DNA from: Polytrichum commune
Taxonomy: Eukaryota; Streptophyta; Polytrichopsida; Polytrichales; Polytrichaceae
Length of the DNA stretch: 64,000 nucleotides
Direction: 5' to 3'
Assembly (NCBI GenBank): GCA_950295325.1
Contig: OX485808.1
Span: 8,250,501 to 8,314,500 of the forward strand
The position numbers were made by a program, and so were the translations under genes. Shown here piece after piece: positions 11,178-54,456 of this stretch (its first letter is position 1; each line of letters begins with the position of its first letter). A model generated the notes under the pieces. That model searched no databases, had not been told where the DNA came from, and was given only the letters and a program-made list of their open reading frames with translations.

Positions 11178-11419
11178 GCCACTACTCTGTGAAGCTTTGG
11201 CCATCAGAAAAGTTTTTCCACAGCTGAAAGATTTTGTTGTATAGAGTGACGCGGCGATTTTCATTCTGCGAGATTGTGTGTATCAAGGGGAGGGTGTAGA
11301 GTGTCTGAGCGCCAGTTACTTTGGTTGATTGAGCGTGACTTGATCGAGATTGAAGTTGTTGCGAATTAGGTGGAAGAATTTGTTGGGTTGACAGAAGGAC
11401 TGAGGGTTGTTTTGAGGAC

Positions 11420-13363
11420 ATGGCGGGGAAGGGCGAAGGTCCTGCGATTGGTATCGATCTTGGTACCACGTACAGCTGCGTAGCAGTGTGGCAACATGAT
11501 CGAGTGGAGATCATCGCCAATGACCAGGGCAACCGGACGACGCCCTCGTATGTCGCGTTCACGGATACGGAGCGTCTCATTGGCGATGCGGCGAAAAATC
11601 AAGTGGCGATGAACCCCGAGAACACCGTGTTCGATGCGAAGAGGTTGATTGGGCGACGGTTCGACGATCCGTCGGTGCAGAGTGACATGAAGCTCTGGCC
11701 TTTCAAGGTGATTCCGGGACCAGCCAACAAGCCACTGATCGTGGTGAACTACAAAGGCGAGCAGAAGCAATTTGCGGCTGAGGAGATTTCGTCGATGGTG
11801 TTGGTTAAGATGAGGGAGACAGCGGAAGCTTTCTTAGGGAGGTCAGTGAAGAACGCTGTGGTTACTGTTCCTGCCTACTTTAATGACTCCCAAAGGCAAG
11901 CGACGAAGGATGCTGGTGTCATCGCAGGATTGAACGTTCTACGTATCATCAACGAGCCTACTGCTGCGGCGATCGCCTACGGGTTAGACAAGAAGAGTAC
12001 GGAGAAGAACATATTGATCTTCGACCTTGGTGGTGGGACATTTGATGTTTCATTACTCACAATTGAGGAGGGAATTTTCGAGGTGAAGGCGACGGCGGGA
12101 GACACACATCTTGGTGGAGAGGATTTCGACAATAGGCTAGTAAACCACTTCGTCCAAGAGTTTAAGAGGAAAACTAGGAAGGATATCACTGGAAATGCCC
12201 GAGCTCTTCGCCGTCTACGCACAGCCGCTGAGAGAGCGAAGAGGACATTGTCAGCAACAGCGCAAACTACCATAGAGATTGACTCTTTGTACGAAGGTGT
12301 TGATTTCTATTCCACAATCACTAGAGCGAGACTGGAGGAGCTGTGCATGGATTTGTTTAGGAAGTGCATGGAGCCAGTCGAGAAATGTCTTAGGGATGCA
12401 AAGATGGACAAGAGCCAAGTTCACGAAGTCGTACTTGTTGGAGGTTCCACACGAATTCCGAAAGTGCAGAGTCTCCTTCAAGATTTCTTCAACGGCAAGG
12501 AGCTCTGCAAGAGTATCAATCCCGATGAGGCAGTTGCTTATGGAGCAGCGGTGCAAGCTGCCATCCTCAGTGGTGAAGGTAACCAGAGGGTTCAAGATCT
12601 TTTGCTTCTGGATGTTACTCCGCTCAGTCTTGGTCTCGAAACAGCTGGAGGGGTTATGACGACATTGATTCCCAGGAACACGACTATTCCCACGAAGAAG
12701 GAGCAGGTGTTCTCAACTTACGCAGATAACCAGCCTGGTGTGCTCATCCAAGTTTACGAAGGAGAGAGAGCCAGAACACGTGATAACAACCTTCTAGGGA
12801 AATTCGAGCTATCCGGTATTCCACCGGCACCAAGGGGTGTACCGCAGGTCAACGTCTGTTTCGACATTGATGCCAATGGCATCTTGAATGTCTCGGCGGA
12901 AGACAAAACTGCGGGTGTAAAGAATAAGATCACCATCACCAACGACAAAGGAAGACTAAGCAAGGACGACATTGAGAAGATGGTGCAAGATGCGGAGAAG
13001 TACAAGAGTGAAGATGAAGAGGTGAAGAGAAAGGTGGACGCGAAGAACTCTCTCGAGAATTATGCCTACAACATGCGCAACACGATCCGGGATGACAAGA
13101 TAGCTGGACAGTTGAACAGCGACGATAAGTCGACAATTGAGAAGGCGGTTGATGCTGCCATCACATGGTTGGATAACAACCAATTAGCCGAGGTGGATGA
13201 ATTTGAGGACAAGCAGAAAGAATTGGAGGGCGTTTGCAACCCCATCATTTCTCGCATGTACCAGGGAGGCGCAGGAAGTGCAGGGCCCTCACCTGGCGCT
13301 GGCTATGGCGCATCAGCTGACAACTCCGGCGGCAAAGGACCGACGATCGAGGAGGTCGATTAG
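11420..13363 (+). CDS. HSP70: Cytosolic heat-shock protein 70, intronless
   Basis: An ATP-driven chaperone of the cytosol and nucleus, 647 residues, the usual family length. The ATPase domain is ~1-385, with the three family signatures: GIDLGTTYS at 11-19, [10 protein letters not shown] at 201-210 and [14 protein letters not shown] at 337-350. Nucleotide-site residues Asp13, Lys74, Asp202, Thr207 and Asp209 are in place by alignment with known Hsc70. The linker VQDLLLLDV (391-399) precedes the substrate domain and helical lid. The Gly/Ser-rich tail ends in EEVD, the docking motif for TPR co-chaperones and the mark of a cytosolic isoform. The start ATGGCGG has a good plant context. The lack of an intron plus upstream heat-shock elements fits the heat-inducible class, since plant constitutive HSC70 genes commonly have one intron. 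Two oddities: Ala270 where plant forms commonly have Cys (RTACERAKR), and a short KKSTEKN loop at 191-197. Confidence 0.98.
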
Positions 13364-23700: not shown

Positions 23701-25660
23701 AAGGAGCACCAAACCCTAAGCTAAACAGAGGTTGGCCTTTGCACCGCCACTTCCGAAACAAATATGGGGTGGGGTAATCCTAGAAGGAAAATCGATTCCT
23801 CTTCCCCATTTCTACACTTTAGATCTACACTACTTATCAAACTCTCTAGATTCCCCCTCTAGATCTAAAAGACTTATCAAACTTGAATCTTGAACCGTTC
23901 AAGGTACACAAAATGTTTTACACATGAGGACACTCTAAAAAGTTGAATTCATACATTATCACTTTCAAATTTGGAATATGTCGGAACATTTGCTAATACT
24001 ATGTTATGCATATCACGAATGCTTAAGATTTTATTATTATCCACTTCATGTGTCAAGTTTTTTGTTCCAATCCTAAAATTACATCTTACAAAACGAACCT
24101 CCCAATTTTGAGTGCGGAATGGATGTACTTTATTGATTTACATAATACATTTCAATAAGAAAGATAAAGATTTGACTTTGAAAAAAAAGAAAAAAAAGAA
24201 GTAAACCCTCGCATATGTATTTGGGCATGAAGTGATACCCCTACATAGGATTGTTGTGCAAACTTCCCCCCCCCCCCCCCCCCCTGAAAAACACACACAC
24301 ACACACACACACACAACCCACACAACCCATAAAGGAGTACTTAAATATCATTGGATGCAACACTATCTTACATCCTTCATCATGCCAATTGTGTGAAACA
24401 CTTACATCTTTAAGCTATGAGGATATATATTAAACATGAGATTGATTAGGCTCGTCATTAGATATCACAATGCTCAATGTGAGGACTTTCATAAATTCAA
24501 ATAATATACAAACGACATTGTAATACTTCCCTATTTGCTTTGAATGAGTTTATTACTTGATTATTGAGGAATTCATCATTCACATTGTGTTGCTTTTGGA
24601 TGAATTTTTACCCAAGATTATTTAGACCTGCTTCCATCAGGAAATATTCCTTAAATTAAACTTTTGAATTTTAAAAAATTGCCACACTTTATCGGAGAAT
24701 CATTGCTTCTTTTTGGAATTCAATGTTGATGAAATTGAGATGCTTTTATCTTGTTTTTTTTTTTATCATGTTCACACAAAAGTGGGTCTTGTTTGAGGTT
24801 TATTAACACAATCACTCTTCTTCACACACCCAAGAAGTCTATTTTGGTTTGACTAAGATCTTCTCCTATATTTTGTTCAAATAAGTGGTTCAATTTGCTT
24901 CACATTGCTTGTGCAAAATACATGTTTGAAATTACAAATTTGAGGGATGTTTGCCTACATTCTTATAACTGATATTTAAGGAAAACTAGATTAAGTCCAA
25001 GTCCATAATCATAACATATTGAACTCTATCATGAAGTCATGCTATAGATTTGTATGGAAAAATCCTTCGATAGAATATGTAGAGGTGATTATAATAATAT
25101 AATATAATATAAATATTTTTTGATTGTATTTTCACTTTTCAACATAGACAACATTTACATAGATTTAACATGAAGCATAGATGTTTTATTTTTCCATCAT
25201 TAATAGCATAATGTTCAAGTAGTCACTAAGGATTCCACATATCTCACATAAAATTCTAGTACATCATATGTGTATTGGCGGATCCACCGATAGAATCGAA
25301 GCCACCGATAGAATCGAAGCCACCAAAATGTGTCAAGTAACCCACTTAGTGCATTTGACAAATGATGTGCGGCAAAATCACATATTCAAGCTCTCAACTC
25401 TAGTGTAAAGTGGGCATGAAGATGGGTCTATAGTGAGCACTTAACAAGCACTAGAATCTTCACTTCAGATATTGAATGAGATATTCTTATGAGCTCCAAA
25501 ACTTGCAAGGCAAATGGCCATGGACACGATTTACATTCGCTAATCGTTTCGCACTAATAGGAATACGATTGTGTATTCCACATTCTACGAGATGTTGGCG
25601 TAAAGAGAAACGTATCCAAACAACACATGTGTAACTTACCCTTCCTCACTACACACCCGA
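20731..25660. other. No gene recognised
   Basis: AT-rich DNA with scattered open frames of at most ~80 codons. Parts near 21.9-22.2 kb and 22.8-23.7 kb have slightly longer frames that could be decayed coding sequence, but nothing was recognised. Low-complexity runs occur at 24266-24315. Confidence 0.45.
24266..24315. repeat. Poly-C followed by (CA)n
   Basis: Nineteen C, then TGAAAA, then about twelve CA units. Confidence 0.95.
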
Positions 25661-26145
25661 GGGCCACTTCACACACGAGCCAAGAGCCATGCCCACGAAA
25701 TTGTGAGAGCCCAAAAGAACGTGTCCAAAGGTTGTCCCAACACACCTCCACAATCATGTAGTATGGTCACGAATCTTCAAGTGTAGTGTGAAGTCACATG
25801 TGACCGGACCCTCAACCAAATGCTATTTTCAATGAATTTCTATTCACGTGGATCCTCAGACATGATAAAACATAATGAACCAACAGTTGTGAACGTTCCA
25901 ACAGTTTGTGTTATGCCTACCTCCAAGAGGCGGTTGTTGAAAACAATCCAAGTGACCATGAAACATGATCCATTCGGTGCCACGTAGGAATCCATGTAGA
26001 CTTCACATCCATCGTGCATTCACATACTCCGTTGGTCCCTCAAGCACAGTGTGAAGCGAACTCGGACCGGCTCCGCCTTTCCCACCACCGAAAGTGCCCG
26101 AAGTGTACTGGTCACGGGCTCTCAGCCTTGTGTGTGAAGTGGCCC
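25661..26145. mobile_element. Candidate MITE with GGGCCACTTCACAC ends
   Basis: GGGCCACTTCACACACGAG at the left is mirrored by the complement of GGGCCACTTCACACACAAGG at the right, followed by TTA. The left flank reads CGA, so the duplication is not confirmed. The interior is GC-rich at the right end. The 85-codon frame there (26014-26271) is not considered real. Confidence 0.5.
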
Positions 26146-26167
26146 TTACCTTACCTTACCTTACCTT
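26145..26167. repeat. (CTTAC)n short tandem repeat
   Basis: About four CTTAC units directly at the end of the preceding element, possibly grown from its TTA flank. Confidence 0.9.
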
Positions 26168-27771: not shown

Positions 27772-28430
27772 GTGATCAAGGAGATCTTTGAGCATAATTA
27801 GTTGAGATCCTAGTGTTTGCAAGTCCATTGACCCCCTAATTAACACCATACAAAAAAATGGGTGGAAGACCAACCTCCTAATATATTACCATCACTGCCG
27901 GAGTAAGAGGGGGCCGTACACGAACACTCCATTGATAAGCTTACCAATCTAAAAATCCCAAAACCAACCATTAAAACCCCCATGAGGAGTATCCACTAGA
28001 ACGCCATCAAATATCTCACACATTTGGTCCTAAACAAAAGAAAACTCGAAAATAAATAAACGCCTACCCCCCCCCCCTCTCAAGTAAATTGGGAAGGTAC
28101 GTACTACACCTGAGCCCACCTCCTAAGACACATAACACCTTATGTTGCATCACGGAATACCATGATAACATCATGCTAACATGCTAACATGCTCACATTC
28201 ATGCCGGTACCTAGCTACGGGCGTTACTTTTTCTTTTTCTTTCTTTTGCAAGTCCAACCGGTTACATGTTGACATCCTTCGGGTTTCCTATATTAATTTG
28301 AGGTACATTCCATAAATTCCTCTAAAGTGATCGGTAATCCTCCTAAAGTCTTGATGAACTTCAACCGGTTATTTCCCAAACTCAAACCAGTTTGAACATC
28401 TGTAACTAACTGCCGGTTCTCCCCGATTGT
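27772..28430 (-). repeat. AACCGGTT repeat, copy 6 (tandem unit 3), interrupted
   Basis: Left part 27772-27827 and right part 28257-28430 make one copy when the insertion at 27828-28244 is removed. Confidence 0.8.
27828..28244 (+). mobile_element. 417-bp retroposed insertion with 12-bp duplication
   Basis: TTTGCAAGTCCA is present on both sides (27816-27827 and 28245-28256), and the flanks join into a normal AACCGGTT repeat. The insert ends in a T/C-rich tail (TTTTTCTTTTTCTTTCTT). A 12-bp duplication plus a simple tail fits target-primed retroposition, as for SINEs with T-rich tails. No pol III boxes were recognised, so the parent is unknown. Confidence 0.7.
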
Positions 28431-44275: not shown

Positions 44276-45745
44276 ATGGAAGGATACTTTGTTGATGAGG
44301 AAGCACGTAGAGAGTCACAAGGAGAGTGGTCACAAAATTCAAAGTGGATGCAACGAGTGTCAAATCAAAATTTCAGAGAGAATCAAAATTCGATTTCACG
44401 AATGTTGCAAGGTCCGAATGTGCTCCCCAACACTTTTAGTGTATTTCATCCTCCTCCACTTCTGAACATGACAAATTACAGACAAGGAGGACAGTTAGAT
44501 AGTCATCATGTTATAGAAGAAATGTTTGAAGAAAAAGAAGAAACCGAGGGAGCAGCAAAGAGCCAACTAGCAGGAAGAAAGAGGGGGCGTGTTACAAAAG
44601 AATCAACAAAGAAGATGAAGAAAGGCGACAAGAGGAATACAATCGAAATTGGCGAATCGGAAGAAGAAGAAGAAGAAATTAGCAGAATCAAATGGAAGGA
44701 TTTTGAAGTGCATCACCTGATAGCAATTCGCGGGGAGATGGAGGAAGAATTCACAAAAACAGCAAACAAGCAAGGTAATATGTTTTTCAAATTTTTTTGT
44801 AATTTGATTTTTGGTAAAAGGTAAATGTGGTAAAAGGTAGATGTGGTAAATGTGGTAAAAAGTAAATGTGGTAAAAGGTAAATATGGTAAAAGGTAAAAG
44901 ATAAAAGGTAAACGTATGATGTTGGCCGTATGATGGGCCCATAGAGGCCGAGGCCTTAGCCTTAGCCTTAGCCTTAGCCTTAGCCGTAAGCCCCTATGCC
45001 CCCCCTCCCCCCATAGTCGGGCGGGAGCTGCCGCGGGGGCTTCGAGTTTTGTTACTGTATTTAGTAAAAGTTTGTCAAGGTCGGGAATGGAACCCGCGTC
45101 TCCTCTACCCTAAACCTCTATCCTTACCACTACGTTACACTCCCTACTTCGATACCAATGACGTCGCTTATGTCCTTATACTACACTTCAACTATGCTGA
45201 ATTTTTTTTTTCAGGGTCAATTTCAACATCTTTTAGCTTCTGGTTTGGAGTTTTTAATGTGTTTTCCTGTTGCTACTGTAGGTACCAACTCTTGGCTCAA
45301 ATTGCATATTCGAATGGTCGCTGCAATCAAAGGTTTCAACCGTTCCTGGTTATCGTGCAAAAAAAAATACAAAACCATCTTAAGTGAATACAGAACTGAC
45401 AAGAGAGCAAATGAAATTTCAGGCAGTGATAGAAAACAAGAATGCAAGTGGTTTACAGAGATGGATCAATGGTATGGTAGTAGGGCCAGTGTTCACAATG
45501 AAATTCCTGCTAGTGCTACAGAATCTTGGGCAGAAGATAATATTCCTTCTACCCCTACACCGTCTCAGACAACAACTTCTGCACCGCCAACACAAGAGAA
45601 GAAAAAGAAGACACAAGAGAAGATTGAAAATCTTCTAGAACAGGTTGTAGGAAATTCAGGGGCACTTCTTGCTTCATTCCAAGAATCTACTGCTATCCTC
45701 AAGAATATGGATAAGAATTTTGCAGCTCTTATAGCTAAATTCTAG
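44276..45745 (+). CDS. Harbinger Myb/trihelix-like protein, two exons
   Basis: Exon 1 is 44276-44774 and exon 2 is 45282-45745, with intron GTAATATG...TACTGTAG. Splicing gives 320 codons in frame (phase 1). In Harbinger elements the second protein binds DNA and helps bring the transposase to the nucleus and the ends. Exon 1 carries a basic stretch (AGRKRGRVTKESTKKMKK), an acidic run, then WKDFEVHHLIAIRGEMEEEF. Exon 2 opens GTNSWLKLHIRMVAAIKGFN and continues RSWLSCKKKYKTIL, together a Trp-containing trihelix-like fold across the splice. The C-terminus has a Pro/Thr linker and a helical LLEQVVGNSGALLASFQES tail. The alternative acceptor at 45213 breaks this domain, so 45281 is preferred. The intron holds a tRNA-like sequence and GTGGTAAA repeats. 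Confidence 0.8.
44812..44990. repeat. GTGGTAAAAG(T) and GCCTTA tandem runs in the Myb intron
   Basis: GGTAAAAGGTAAATGTGGTA-type units fill 44812-44910. GCCTTA repeats about five times at 44950-44983. Confidence 0.85.
45072..45146 (-). mobile_element. tRNA-like sequence or SINE head in the Myb intron
   Basis: On the minus strand, TAACGTAGTGGTAAGG fits a pol III A box/D-arm. GGGTTCCATTCCCGACC ~45 bases later fits a B box/T-arm with a closed CGGG/CCCG stem. No paired acceptor stem is visible, so an active tRNA gene is unlikely. It may be a SINE or tRNA relic captured by the transposon. Confidence 0.5.
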
Positions 45746-45801
45746 ATTTAATCACTATCACTATCAGTTTCCATAATACTAGATTTCTGCCGTAGTTTGT
45801 A

Positions 45802-47142
45802 TTACCACAAACTTTCTGCCAATGTTTCGTGCATCGTTGTAGCTTCCCGCAGAAGGTCATTAGCCTTCTCATTTTCTCTCAATAAAAATAAATTTGTCTC
45901 TTCATCATTTTCTTCATCTGCAATTGGCATATCTTCCCTAGCTAATATCCTTCTTCGCACTTCCGCAATTCCAGCTCTTTCTCCTCGTAATTCACTGCCT
46001 TCTCCTACTTCACCCTCGCTAATTCTTCTAGATAATTTATTTTCTGCTTCAATAATCCAATCTTCTTCTATACCTTCGTTATTGACAATGCATATATTGT
46101 GCAATACTATACAAGTTGCTACAATATCAGGCATATTCCTCAAAGGTACCTCAGATCATTTCATTATCAATCTCCATCTGCCCTTCAAAATCCCGAACGC
46201 CCTTTCTACGCACATCCTCGTCGAAGATTGTATGAAATTCCAATTTCCCTCTTTCCCGGATAACGCTGTTTTTCCACCCTTAAATGGACAATACATCCAA
46301 GGTCGTACCGGATATGCCGCATCTCCTATCAACTTGTAAGGCTGGAATTTACCCTCAATACAAGCTCGTCCAATTTTTGTCACTTGAAATACTGCCCAAT
46401 CGTGAAGACTCCCTGCCCACCCAAACTCATAATCCCAAAACATGCAATCAGGTCCAACAATTCCCTGTAAAATCGCTGAATGAAATGACTTCCTACAGTA
46501 ATAATCTTCTCCCCCGAGTATAGGAGTTAAAACAGGAATATGTGATCCATCTATCGCACCTATAATGTAAGGTATTCCGTGCAACTTTTCGAACTTTGAA
46601 GCTAAAACCCTAAACTGTGATTCACTTGGAGTTTGCACGAAAATTGGTTGAAGATGCTTTCTTACGGCTCTGCAAAATTCTCTCACTATTATAGATATTG
46701 TGCTTTTATGTACTCCATACAAATCACCTATTGTTTGCAATCCATCACCACTACCCAACCGATGCAATGACATCGCTATCCTCTCTTGCACCGGTACCGA
46801 AACCCTAAAACGAGTATCCTCTTTCTTCAAATAAGGACCCAACCTCTCATACAAGAACCTAAATGTCGTATATGTCACTCGCGTTCGCTTTCTAAATTCT
46901 TTCTCCGTCCACGAACCTAATAGCAACCGGTCCACAAAACCTAACATCCTCTCTTGACTCCATATGTTCCTCTCTTTACGTCCAATGCTTTCGTAAACCA
47001 CGCTCAAAATTGCAAATTTTTCCCATTCTCCTTGCAAAATCAGTGTTTGAATGCCTACAACATTCTTCACAAGCATGTACAAAAATATGTACAATCCTAG
47101 TAGCACAACTAGCTTCCTCCTCCTCTCTTCCATTTCGACCAT
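45802..47142 (-). pseudogene. Harbinger DDE transposase with one in-frame TGA
   Basis: The frame runs from ATG at 47142 to a stop at 45802, 446 codons, broken only by TGA at 46156-46158 (codon 329). Residues ~120-160 form a helix-turn-helix (IGDLYGVHKSTIS). The nuclease domain shows GAIDGSHIP (Asp198), SLHDWAVF (Asp248), LIGDAAYPVRPW (Asp274) and VERAFGILKGRW (Glu313), all hallmarks of PIF/Harbinger. After the TGA the same frame continues with NMPDIVATCIVLHNICI, the usual next block of the family, so the stop is secondary; CGA to TGA is the simplest origin. If translated up to the stop, the product keeps every acidic motif but loses the C-terminal helices. A hydrophobic stretch at 11-30 is unusual. 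Promoter elements were not recognised. Confidence 0.9.
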
Positions 47143-47478
47143 ACTTGCTGAATTTTAAGACGAAAAGAAGAAAAACCTAAGTGAGAAGATAAGTGAAGGC
47201 ATGTGTAGACAAGTGAAGTCAACAAAATGGTCAAACTTTGTTTTTTACTAAAACTGCCCTTTTTGGGCTTTATATTAAAAAAATCAGCACATCCACTCCT
47301 TGCCGCATGGTCATTCCTCTTGGTCCACATTCGGTTTACACCTAGTGAGGGGCCCAACGGCTTTGTAAATCAATTTTTTAATAACTCGGACCATGAAATG
47401 TAGACCATGAACTCGTACCAAGGAATAAGGCATCTTCCGTGGGACGAGTTCATGGTCTATGGTGTAAACCGCCCCTTA

Positions 47479-52690: not shown

Positions 52691-53205
52691 GCATGTGTGG
52701 GTGCTATTCGGTCCGTTTATCACGATCTCCAATTTTTGCCGATTATCTTCACATAAATGAAACTTATTTAACACTATCAAATCTATAATGAAAGATCGAC
52801 AAAAACATGATTGAGAATTGGGCATGCCCTAGTTTAATTAGGATTACGGGAAGTGCATGTTTGTAGATTCCTTCGATGAAGTCCTCCTAGTTGTGTTCGT
52901 TGTTGAGTGTGGAGTACTTGATAAAATATGACGATGTAGTTTAATGTCTTTTAAACATGTGTGTTTATGGTGTTTGTTTTTTGATCCTTGCCTTACTTCA
53001 CACCAAATGAGACACATGTGATTGATTTGGACAAAGAGCCAAATATAACACCCATGTAAAAAAAAGATAATGCCCGTATTTTCATACCGGCGTGACTTCG
53101 AGCCTGTTGGCCTTATACTGATCACGGTATTCCATGACGCAGTATATGGTTTTATGCCTCCTTTGGGGAGGTGGGCTCTGATGGGTCACTAGTAGTCCGT
53201 TTTTG
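52691..53205. other. Spacer and probable LINE 3' tail
   Basis: No gene. The part near 53090-53205 may be the 3' untranslated region of the adjoining minus-strand retroelement; no clear poly-A tail is visible. Confidence 0.4.
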
Positions 53206-54456
53206 TTAGGGTGGAGGGACAGGTGTTTGTTTATTGTTTAGTTTTCGTTTGTTTAGTACTAGGTAGGTGAGGTATTTAACGGCGTTTTGGTGAATGTCCT
53301 TCATGAGTTTTTTGATGTTTGATTTTGGAATTTTGAGTTCTGTGAGTTTCTTAATGGAGTGTTCGTGTATGGCTCCTCGTACTCCTGCTATAATTGTTAT
53401 GATGGGGTTGGTTTTCCAACCATTATTCTGGATAGTGTTATTTAGTGGGTCGTATTTGGCGTGTTTTTGTGTGATGGCTTGTTCGGGGAATCTATCGTGG
53501 CAATATGTGAATTCAATGAATTGTACTGTGTGACTGGGTGATGGTGATATAGGCAGAGTTATATGATTTGGGGCTCCGATCATGCATAGGATGTCCGGTT
53601 TAAGTTTAGCTTGGCAATGGCATGGCTTTTGGTGGCATGTGCATTGTAGTAGCCAATCGGGTATTGTTTGTTCTTGTGGTCAGTTGTTGAGATGGCATGC
53701 ATTGACCATGGTAAGGAACCTTGTGTTTTTATTGGCTTGTAGCGTCTGGGTGATAAGATGTACGGCTTTGTTATGTCTTGCGATTCTAAGCCCTTTTAAG
53801 TATGGGTGTTTGCATGTAGATAGTAAATGGGGCCACGTGTCTCGTTCGTTCTTATGGCATAGTGTACAATTGGGATTTTGGTGTGTCATGGGCCAAAATA
53901 TATTTTTCATGTGGTTGCCCATATATTGGGCATATCTAAATTTTAGTGTTTGGGTGATTTGGGTATTTGGTATTTTGTAATTGTGCCAAAAATGGTTAGA
54001 GAGTTTCTGGTTTATTTGGGTGTTTGATAGCCATTTGTCTACGAATGGCAATTTATTTTTGGCAAAGGTTGTTACTTGGTTTCCATGTTCTTTTGTTATG
54101 AATGTGCGTAGGTTGCGGATGGCTCCGTCGTGTGTGGCTATTGGGCAACTGGCTAGCCAATATGGGGTCGGACGAGCTATGTGAATGTGTGGGGTTCATT
54201 TTGGTTTTTCTTTGGTTGTCCCCTCATTTGCTAGTTCATCGGCTAATTCGTTTCCGGTGATGCCTGAGTGTGTTGGGACTTTATGTATGTGGATTTTGTG
54301 TGGGGTAACACCCATGTACCTTAGTCCTATCTTGCTCAAAAGTTGTCCTTTGATATAGTATGGTGTATATTGTTTTCCTTTTCGAAAAGTGAGTTCGGGG
54401 GTAGGGTTGGGAGAGGGAGAGACAAAGAAAGAAAAAGAGAAGGGGTAGGTTGTCAT
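53206..54456 (-). pseudogene. Truncated non-LTR retrotransposon: RNase H, CCHC knuckle, endonuclease-like domain
   Basis: One minus-strand frame of 417 codons is interrupted by only two TGA codons (54196-54198, 53680-53682). First comes the end of an RNase H domain, HKVPTHSGITGNELADELAN. Next is CTLC-x9-H-x4-C (about 53868-53812) followed by RHNKAVHLI, the CCHC knuckle known in retroelements that use a restriction-like endonuclease. Last is KPDILCMIGAP ... VQFIEFTYCHD ... KHAKYDPL ... NGWKTNPIITIIAGVRGA, which fits a PD-(D/E)XK nuclease core and the C-terminal pattern of that class. Reverse transcriptase is absent: the copy is cut off upstream near 54420, and the first residues are probably flank. 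Both stops being TGA suggests decay by C-to-T change. Which clade it belongs to is open. Confidence 0.8.

Follow-up and report, generated by a model that had tools for sequence, protein, structure and literature searches.

The genome of the moss Polytrichum commune very probably contains a family of dual-endonuclease non-LTR retrotransposons of the Dualen/RandI type, abundant and recently mobile. The stretch of DNA analysed here, 64,000 nucleotides of contig OX485808.1 and called the window below, holds a dead, 5'-truncated copy of this LINE. In longer copies the APE endonuclease, RNase H and a short-repeat, non-poly(A) tail that mark Dualen/RandI elements were all found, and the restriction-like endonuclease (RLE) was recognised at the level of motifs.

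The window copy was 74-81% identical in DNA to four longer copies, and the homology was confined to positions 54306-53058. Both ends of the homology fall at a perfect 13-bp repeat, TACATGGGTGTTA, which argues for a single insertion of a 5'-truncated retrotransposon of about 1.25 kb. The repeat occurs only twice in the whole window, both times abutting the insertion; random stretches of 100 nt and 20 nt drawn from window DNA had a 13-mer in common in 0.1% of 2,000 trials. The features of the insertion, together with a second fragment of the same family, are as follows.

53059-54305, minus strand: dual-endonuclease LINE copy, decayed and 5'-truncated, that retains the C-terminal part of ORF2, the 3' UTR and the tail, by homology to longer copies
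54306-54318, minus strand: 5'-side target-site duplication TACATGGGTGTTA, 13 bp, exact repeat of 53046-53058
53046-53058, minus strand: 3'-side target-site duplication TACATGGGTGTTA, 13 bp, exact repeat of 54306-54318
54220-54306, minus strand: C-terminal end of RNase H (HSGITGNELADELA), by Pfam PF00075
54196-54198, minus strand: in-frame TGA (decay)
53812-53868, minus strand: CCHC knuckle C-T-L-C-x9-H-x4-C, four ligands invariant in 9 of 9 aligned copies
53452-53778, minus strand: putative RLE core, motif residues invariant in 9 of 9 copies, containing the TGA at 53682-53680
53778-53770, 53598-53593, 53514-53512 and 53466-53452, minus strand: putative RLE motifs RHN, PD, E of IEFTY and K..KY, respectively
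53680-53682, minus strand: in-frame TGA (decay), with R at the matching place in locus L007
53068-53178, minus strand: structured 3' UTR (hairpins closed off by a basal stem, and a terminal hairpin), by alignment of 29 sequences
53059-53067, minus strand: remnant of a pyrimidine-rich 3' tail, (CTTTT)n in relatives
27829-28243, plus strand: another 3' fragment from this family, shorter and frameshifted, with the RLE end, 3' UTR and CTTTT tail, by blastn and tblastn with four longer copies

The first-pass annotation of positions 53206-54456 had read RNase H residues, CTLC-x9-H-x4-C, RHN and the series KPD...IEFTY...KYDPL in one frame, and all of these are present there on the minus strand. Its frame of 417 codons does carry the motif residues in a single phase; the frame is not open, being interrupted by the two TGA codons, and its first ~50 codons lie in 54306-54456, which is flanking DNA outside the insertion. 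RNase H was recovered by PF00075 at 27.1 bits (cut-off 25.8), as a stub covering profile positions 110-139 of 141, so that the C-terminal end of the domain is all that the window retains. The plus-strand frame of the same stretch contains 24 stops and is non-coding.

Other genes were noticed in passing. The window holds an uninterrupted HSP70 reading frame at 11354-13363 on the plus strand (Pfam, 876 bits). Within 45068-47154 there is a DDE_Tnp_4 transposase ORF on the minus strand (74 bits) and a Myb/SANT-like ORF on the plus strand (23.5 bits, cut-off 27), which are perhaps a PIF/Harbinger-like transposon pair. Elsewhere in the genome, a large cluster of at least 14 light-harvesting genes with equal scores occupies both strands of about 95 kb (C5:1751760-1846160).

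The genome searched comprised 407.8 Mb in 64 contigs. In line with a moss host, the best PDB matches of one of its light-harvesting proteins were, after a 620-residue record (9vfj), 8htu and 7xqp, and those of PsaB, encoded on the contig bearing psaA/psaB, were 6l35, 8htu and 7ksq (1701-1702 bits, against 1665 for the next); apart from 9vfj, these are presumably photosystems of the moss Physcomitrium patens. With the window's middle 171 codons as query, 150 of 3802 first-look candidates were scored, and all 150 matched at 74-100% identity with E <=1e-84. At least 150 genomic matches of this quality place the window frame far beyond chance. In nine 10-kb samples taken at round coordinates the family occupied 2,974 of 90,000 bases (3.3%), an estimate with great scatter between samples, five of the nine having none. 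Longer copies, which the first-pass annotation had proposed to seek, were recovered at lengths of about 11.9-14.6 kb. They belong to two lineages whose reverse transcriptases (RTs) are 60-63% identical to each other. The c lineage includes c1, c5 and c4c, which are near-identical, together with c4a, c4b and c7, and the g lineage includes g1, g4 and g1b. Copies c1, c5 and c4c, located on C1, C5 and C4, share 98.6-99.4% identity across about 11.9 kb, and the second-lineage copies g4 and g1b are 99.7% identical over 13.3 kb; such identity between long copies indicates recent activity. Each of the two ORFs of c1 is interrupted by a stop, and c5 and c7 are frameshifted. Copy c4a has a stop in ORF1 and, in its RT, a gap that keeps the frame (351 of 400 codons could be aligned); c4b has an ORF2 start lost in frame. 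Both ORF frames are open in g4, which measures about 14.6 kb from duplication to tail, and most other longer copies have a stop, frameshift or deletion. Four more loci gave no match at the place expected for further full-length siblings, and these are perhaps truncated, diverged or shifted.

The longer copies consist of a giant ORF1, an overlap ATGNNTAG, and an ORF2 in which a 2A-like motif, APE, RT, a weak chromodomain-like stretch, a PCIF1-derived domain, RNase H, CCHC and RLE follow one another. In the six longer ORF2s that were aligned, the APE motifs, RT, RNase H, CCHC and RLE-like domain share one reading frame, with single open frames of up to 2924 codons. ORF1 has 1294 amino acids from its ATG in c5 and about 1800 codons in g4, and the parts of it that were scanned gave no Pfam domain above cut-off. 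Counted from its ATG, ORF2 has 2900 codons in g4; that of c1 would reach about 2600 if read through its stop. In ATGNNTAG the ATG of ORF2 overlaps the stop of ORF1; it was present in seven of eight copies examined (c4c left out) and missing in g1, and the overlap suggests that ORF2 is translated by stop/restart. The motif D-x-x-x-NPGP, which we take to be a 2A signal with E as the canonical residue, was found in 9 of 9 copies, representing six independent sequences. The E occurs in three of the six, as GDIELNPGP (c4a) and GDIETNPGP (c4b and g1), and the others have K, Q or H.

RT and APE domains, for which the first-pass annotation had proposed to look upstream, were both found there in the longer copies. 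RVT_1 (PF00078) scored above the Pfam cut-off in all six ORF2s. Exo_endo_phos or Exo_endo_phos_2 did so in five, and g4 had no APE-family match at E<=1; the APE residues TWN, QET, GDFNRD, IDG and SDH are invariant in the alignment of all six, g4 included. A profile of five element RTs was compared with the PDB, where three chains named R2 scored 113-133 bits, two further chains, presumably Bombyx R2, scored 76-80, and LINE-1 chains scored 78-81, i.e., Bombyx R2 was no better than LINE-1. In a tree of 19 RT sequences the elements formed a clade (100/100) on a long separate branch, and this clade joined the three R2 sequences against LINE-1 (8c8j) and ten L1-like RTs from the same genome (98.4/100). 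Since the tree is unrooted and its references lack Dualen, HERO, NeSL and I, and since the moss RTs were labelled L1-like by eye, it supports "not L1, nearer R2" and nothing further. The placement in a LINE tree which the first-pass annotation had in view thus set the RT apart from the L1-like ones and nearer to R2. The ten sampled moss L1-like RTs are 19-25% identical to the dual-endonuclease RT. By eye they represent at least two kinds of L1-like LINE in the same genome (L067-L076), some in long open frames.

PF00075 was above cut-off in all six long ORF2s (47-61 bits), and the RNase H residues D, E, D, H and D are kept. The retained H sets this domain apart from the archaeal-like type, which bears R. 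Full-length copies of a standard R2-like or L1/I-like layout devoid of RNase H, which would have spoken against the first-pass annotation, were not found, as each of the six aligned copies combines RT and RNase H with APE motifs, the CCHC and an RLE-like domain. This combination supports its suggestion, namely kinship with Dualen/RandI or else a lineage of its own in which these modules are mixed.

In nine C-terminal sequences, with identities down to 41%, C-x2-C-x9-H-x4-C, R..RHN, PD, the E of IEFTY and K..KY are invariant, with a spacing of PD-x26-E. We take RHN, PD, E and K..KY to be RLE motifs, assigned after R2. A CCHC-RLE profile run against 177635 PDB sequences at E<=10 retrieved 8gh6 and 8ibw only, both of them presumably Bombyx R2, with an E of 0.57 that is not significant alone. 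The two were aligned at residues 940-979, the CCHC/RHN junction, which is the expected place. No Pfam model matched the RLE in the window copy or in the six long ORF2s. AlphaFold2, given the window's C-terminal 330 codons as a single sequence, returned a pLDDT of 32 and the model was set aside; as it was too poor to use, we infer the PD-(D/E)XK fold from the conserved motifs and the colinearity with R2. Viral contigs scanned with the CCHC-RLE alignment gave 61 pattern matches, none of which was confirmed. For five pairs within lineages, dN/dS was 0.16-0.23 in APE and 0.08-0.14 in CCHC+RLE, and between lineages (c7-g4) it was 0.33 and 0.27, respectively, all rough ratios because synonymous distances are near saturation (RT was undefined in two pairs). 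Judged by these values, both nuclease domains are under constraint.

Between RT and RNase H there are two inserts, a chromodomain-like stretch (YLCQW...W) followed by the PCIF1-derived domain. The PCIF1 model PF12237 (cut-off 31.1) scored 47.0 bits in g1 and 41.6 in g4, and stayed below cut-off in the c lineage (25.5-27.7, 4 of 4). In the genome, PF12237 was above cut-off at all 150 places scored, the best 150 of 698 candidates, few of which were read. In a PDB search at E<=1, PCIF1 was the only match to the stretch from g1 (6irv, E 3.5e-4; 6irx, 2.9e-3). The catalytic motif of PCIF1 is NPPF, and it is missing here, the corresponding columns reading HPPN in g1, HPHN in g4 and FPTD in the c lineage. 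The segment of chromodomain-like and PCIF1-like sequence had a dN/dS of 0.13-0.21 within lineages. Homology to PCIF1, replacement of NPPF and this constraint together point to a PCIF1 derivative that is kept and probably non-catalytic. For the stretch before it, either scan matched a chromodomain in a single copy out of four (E 0.12 in one scan, 0.011 in the other), which makes for a weak identification. In the accessible passages of open-licence PMC papers, supplements being outside the scope of the search, no report of PCIF1 within a LINE was found; such a domain kept in a LINE would be an unusual captured module.

The 3' UTR was aligned for 29 sequences, of which two lie in the window, nine came from loci read earlier and 18 from a further set of 20 3' ends. 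L048 and L058 had no match to the search pattern, and from the 31 pattern matches L001 (the window copy again) and an antisense match in L046 were left out. A common fold was obtained, in which a basal stem surrounds hairpins and is accompanied by a terminal hairpin. Compensatory double changes occurred in 12 of 32 pairs (8.3 in shuffles, 7 of 500 as high) and in 70 cells (24.4 +/- 5.3 in shuffles, 0 of 500 as high); 95.9% of cells were paired, as against 89.7% in shuffled and 31-38% in slid alignments. Neither lineage has a poly(A) tail: the 3' end carries (CTTTT)n in c-lineage copies and (CTAT)n in g-lineage copies, and the terminal hairpin of the g lineage looks similar to that of the c lineage.

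Target duplications were found in eight of nine copies examined: 13 bp in the window, 11 in c1, 12 in c5, 9-12 in c4c, 13 in c4a, 14 in c7, 14 in g4 and 11 in g1b, with none found for c4b. The one in c1 is ambiguous, because its flank is tandemly repeated and also gives longer matches, of 14 nt. A site-specific target was considered and set aside. In the copies read, inspection by eye showed no kinship among the flanks past the tail, and insertion therefore seems to be dispersed. Short microhomology between tail and target was seen by eye at four of six junctions (c4c, c4a, c7 and g4; not c1 and c5).

Several 5' ends had features of their own. The copies at L011/L005 (C1:44780133), L025/L013 (C5:33403302) and L026/L016 (C4:36104678), 98.6-99.4% identical, start 1-2 bases from the ORF1 ATG, and each has a differing leader of 16-60 nt between duplication and ATG. 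The last 36 nt of one leader match a dispersed repeat; in another, which matches nowhere else in the genome, an inverted copy of its own target duplication can be made out by eye. Template jumping may have taken place at the 5' junctions, or filler DNA may have been added there, and the RNA may be nearly leaderless; splicing or a host leader exon was also considered as the cause of the differing leaders. At the 5' junction of g1b (L040/L024), a short filler between the 11-bp duplication and the truncated element repeats, by eye, the neighbouring target. An Rfam search at E<=1 of the 5' ends of six loci yielded no ribozyme, and sub-threshold matches to miRNA models in L066 only. These lie upstream of g4 (L066:1310-1563), with below-gathering scores for several models on both strands. 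The region upstream of g4 is partly similar to window 25655-26146 and is perhaps a small dispersed inverted-repeat transposon.

A life cycle may be proposed from these features. A long RNA would be translated into ORF1 and then, through stop/restart at AUGNNUAG, into ORF2, whose 2A-like motif may separate a leader at the N terminus from the enzymatic portion. The RT would recognise the folded 3' UTR and the CTTTT or CTAT repeat, a nuclease would nick a dispersed target, and target-primed reverse transcription would then yield the cDNA, RNase H clearing away the RNA template. Target duplications of 9-14 bp and the 5' truncation of some copies would be the outcome. We infer the nuclease activities and their division of labour from the conserved domains. 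APE would make the first nick, and the CCHC/RLE module would bind DNA and help in the second cleavage; this seems to us the most likely order, with belief and doubt about evenly balanced. Dispersed sites and short duplications favour APE for the first nick, and they do not reveal which nuclease cuts.

APE elements give dispersed insertions with short duplications, and the intact APE motif residues and dispersed-looking insertions of the moss copies would therefore suit an ordinary APE-type LINE with RNase H, in which the CCHC and C-terminal domain form a nucleic-acid-binding tail and the likeness to RLE is incidental or inactive. The lack of a Pfam match for the RLE and the R2 match at E 0.57 only would agree with this. 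Such a tail would hardly be expected to keep CCHC, RHN, PD-x26-E and K..KY in invariant order down to 41% identity, or a dN/dS of 0.08-0.14 in CCHC+RLE; moreover, both PDB matches are presumably R2, at the matching place, and the RT goes with R2 and not L1 in the tree. We consider this explanation improbable. That an R2-like tail became joined to an I-like element by chance neighbourhood or assembly chimera could be imagined from the window copy alone, where an RNase H stub stands beside CCHC/RLE. The same order is repeated in one frame at six loci of two lineages, with single open frames of up to 2924 codons and at least 150 genomic matches to the C-terminal part, which makes this idea scarcely credible.

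Within the dual-endonuclease reading the labour might be reversed, the RLE making the priming nick as in R2 and APE being a relic or serving second-strand cleavage. The grouping of the RT with R2 speaks for such an arrangement, and the tail/target microhomology at four of six junctions fits annealing-assisted priming. It is opposed by the constraint which acts on APE likewise, and by the absence of a common target sequence by eye, unlike what the accessible passages of PMC4640811 give for most RLE clades. We regard the reversal as possible, on the doubtful side.

Returning to the dual-endonuclease element with APE as the likelier first cutter, we see several points of comparison with known systems. 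On one view of LINE evolution, dual-endonuclease elements are the intermediate in the replacement of RLE by APE. PCIF1 itself is presumably the cap m6Am methyltransferase (CAPAM). A tentative proposal, which we would sooner question than assert, is that dual-endonuclease LINEs of land plants have grown to 12-14.6 kb by capture of host modules, namely the chromodomain-like stretch and a PCIF1-derived adaptor that would bind RNA, cap or polymerase tail and lacks the catalytic motif, with the 2A-like motif and stop/restart splitting the products and both nucleases needed, one per strand. A young, abundant moss family would extend dual-endonuclease LINEs to land plants, and its near-identical copies and two diverged lineages open the way to asking which strand each nuclease cuts and what keeps both under selection.

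To our knowledge, R2 has neither APE nor RNase H and is site-specific, and we know of no RLE in L1 or I. The moss element is like the R2 clade in having CCHC and then RHN..PD..E..K after the RT, and R2 chains gave the best PDB scores for its RT; it differs in the presence of APE and in flanks that are unrelated by eye, and thus does not match an RLE-only, site-specific layout. Algal Dualen, in the 2005 description, is said to carry a cysteine protease as an accessory. None was found at E<=1 in the six ORF2 frames and the ORF1 parts scanned (the first part of the g4 ORF1 and some ORF2 starts left out), where a diverged one could escape. With plant L1, which has RNase H of archaeal type, and with I-group APE LINEs the moss element has APE, RT and RNase H in common; the archaeal-like RNase H of plant L1 has R where the moss element has H (PMC4640811, in part). 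Utopia of oomycetes likewise combines RLE with RNase H, and according to the same passages its RNase H is of archaeal type, lies upstream of the RT and goes with a U2 gene target (PMC4640811), whereas that of the moss element is of the H type and lies downstream, and the insertions look dispersed.

In the accessible passages of the literature, the combination of APE and RLE in one LINE marks Dualen/RandI (PMC3636483, PMC4640811), for which RNase H is also reported (PMC4640811), and the position of Dualen is read as evidence for APE replacing RLE in LINE evolution (PMC4640811). The 3' repeats of RandI are given there as (ATT)n and (CTATTT)n, and those of an algal SINE with a RandI-type tail as (CTTT)n (PMC3747384). 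As to hosts, the excerpted text of a 2015 survey places Dualen/RandI in green algae only (PMC4438587), that of a 2025 paper has Dualen in cryptophytes except Guillardia (PMC12747079), and a study treating three Chlamydomonas species together with relatives records it in all of them (PMC8226300, in part). The available parts of open-licence PMC papers, searched with supplements outside the scope, yielded no Dualen/RandI in mosses or land plants. The moss element is like Dualen/RandI in its APE and RLE-type nuclease, its RNase H and its short non-poly(A) 3' repeats. It differs in its moss host and, as read from the moss copies alone, in its length of 11.9-14.6 kb, giant ORF1, 2A-like motif, and PCIF1-derived and chromodomain-like inserts. 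Its working principle would thus be that of Dualen/RandI, whilst the host group, the size and, judged on the moss side only, the PCIF1-derived insert appear new or unusual.
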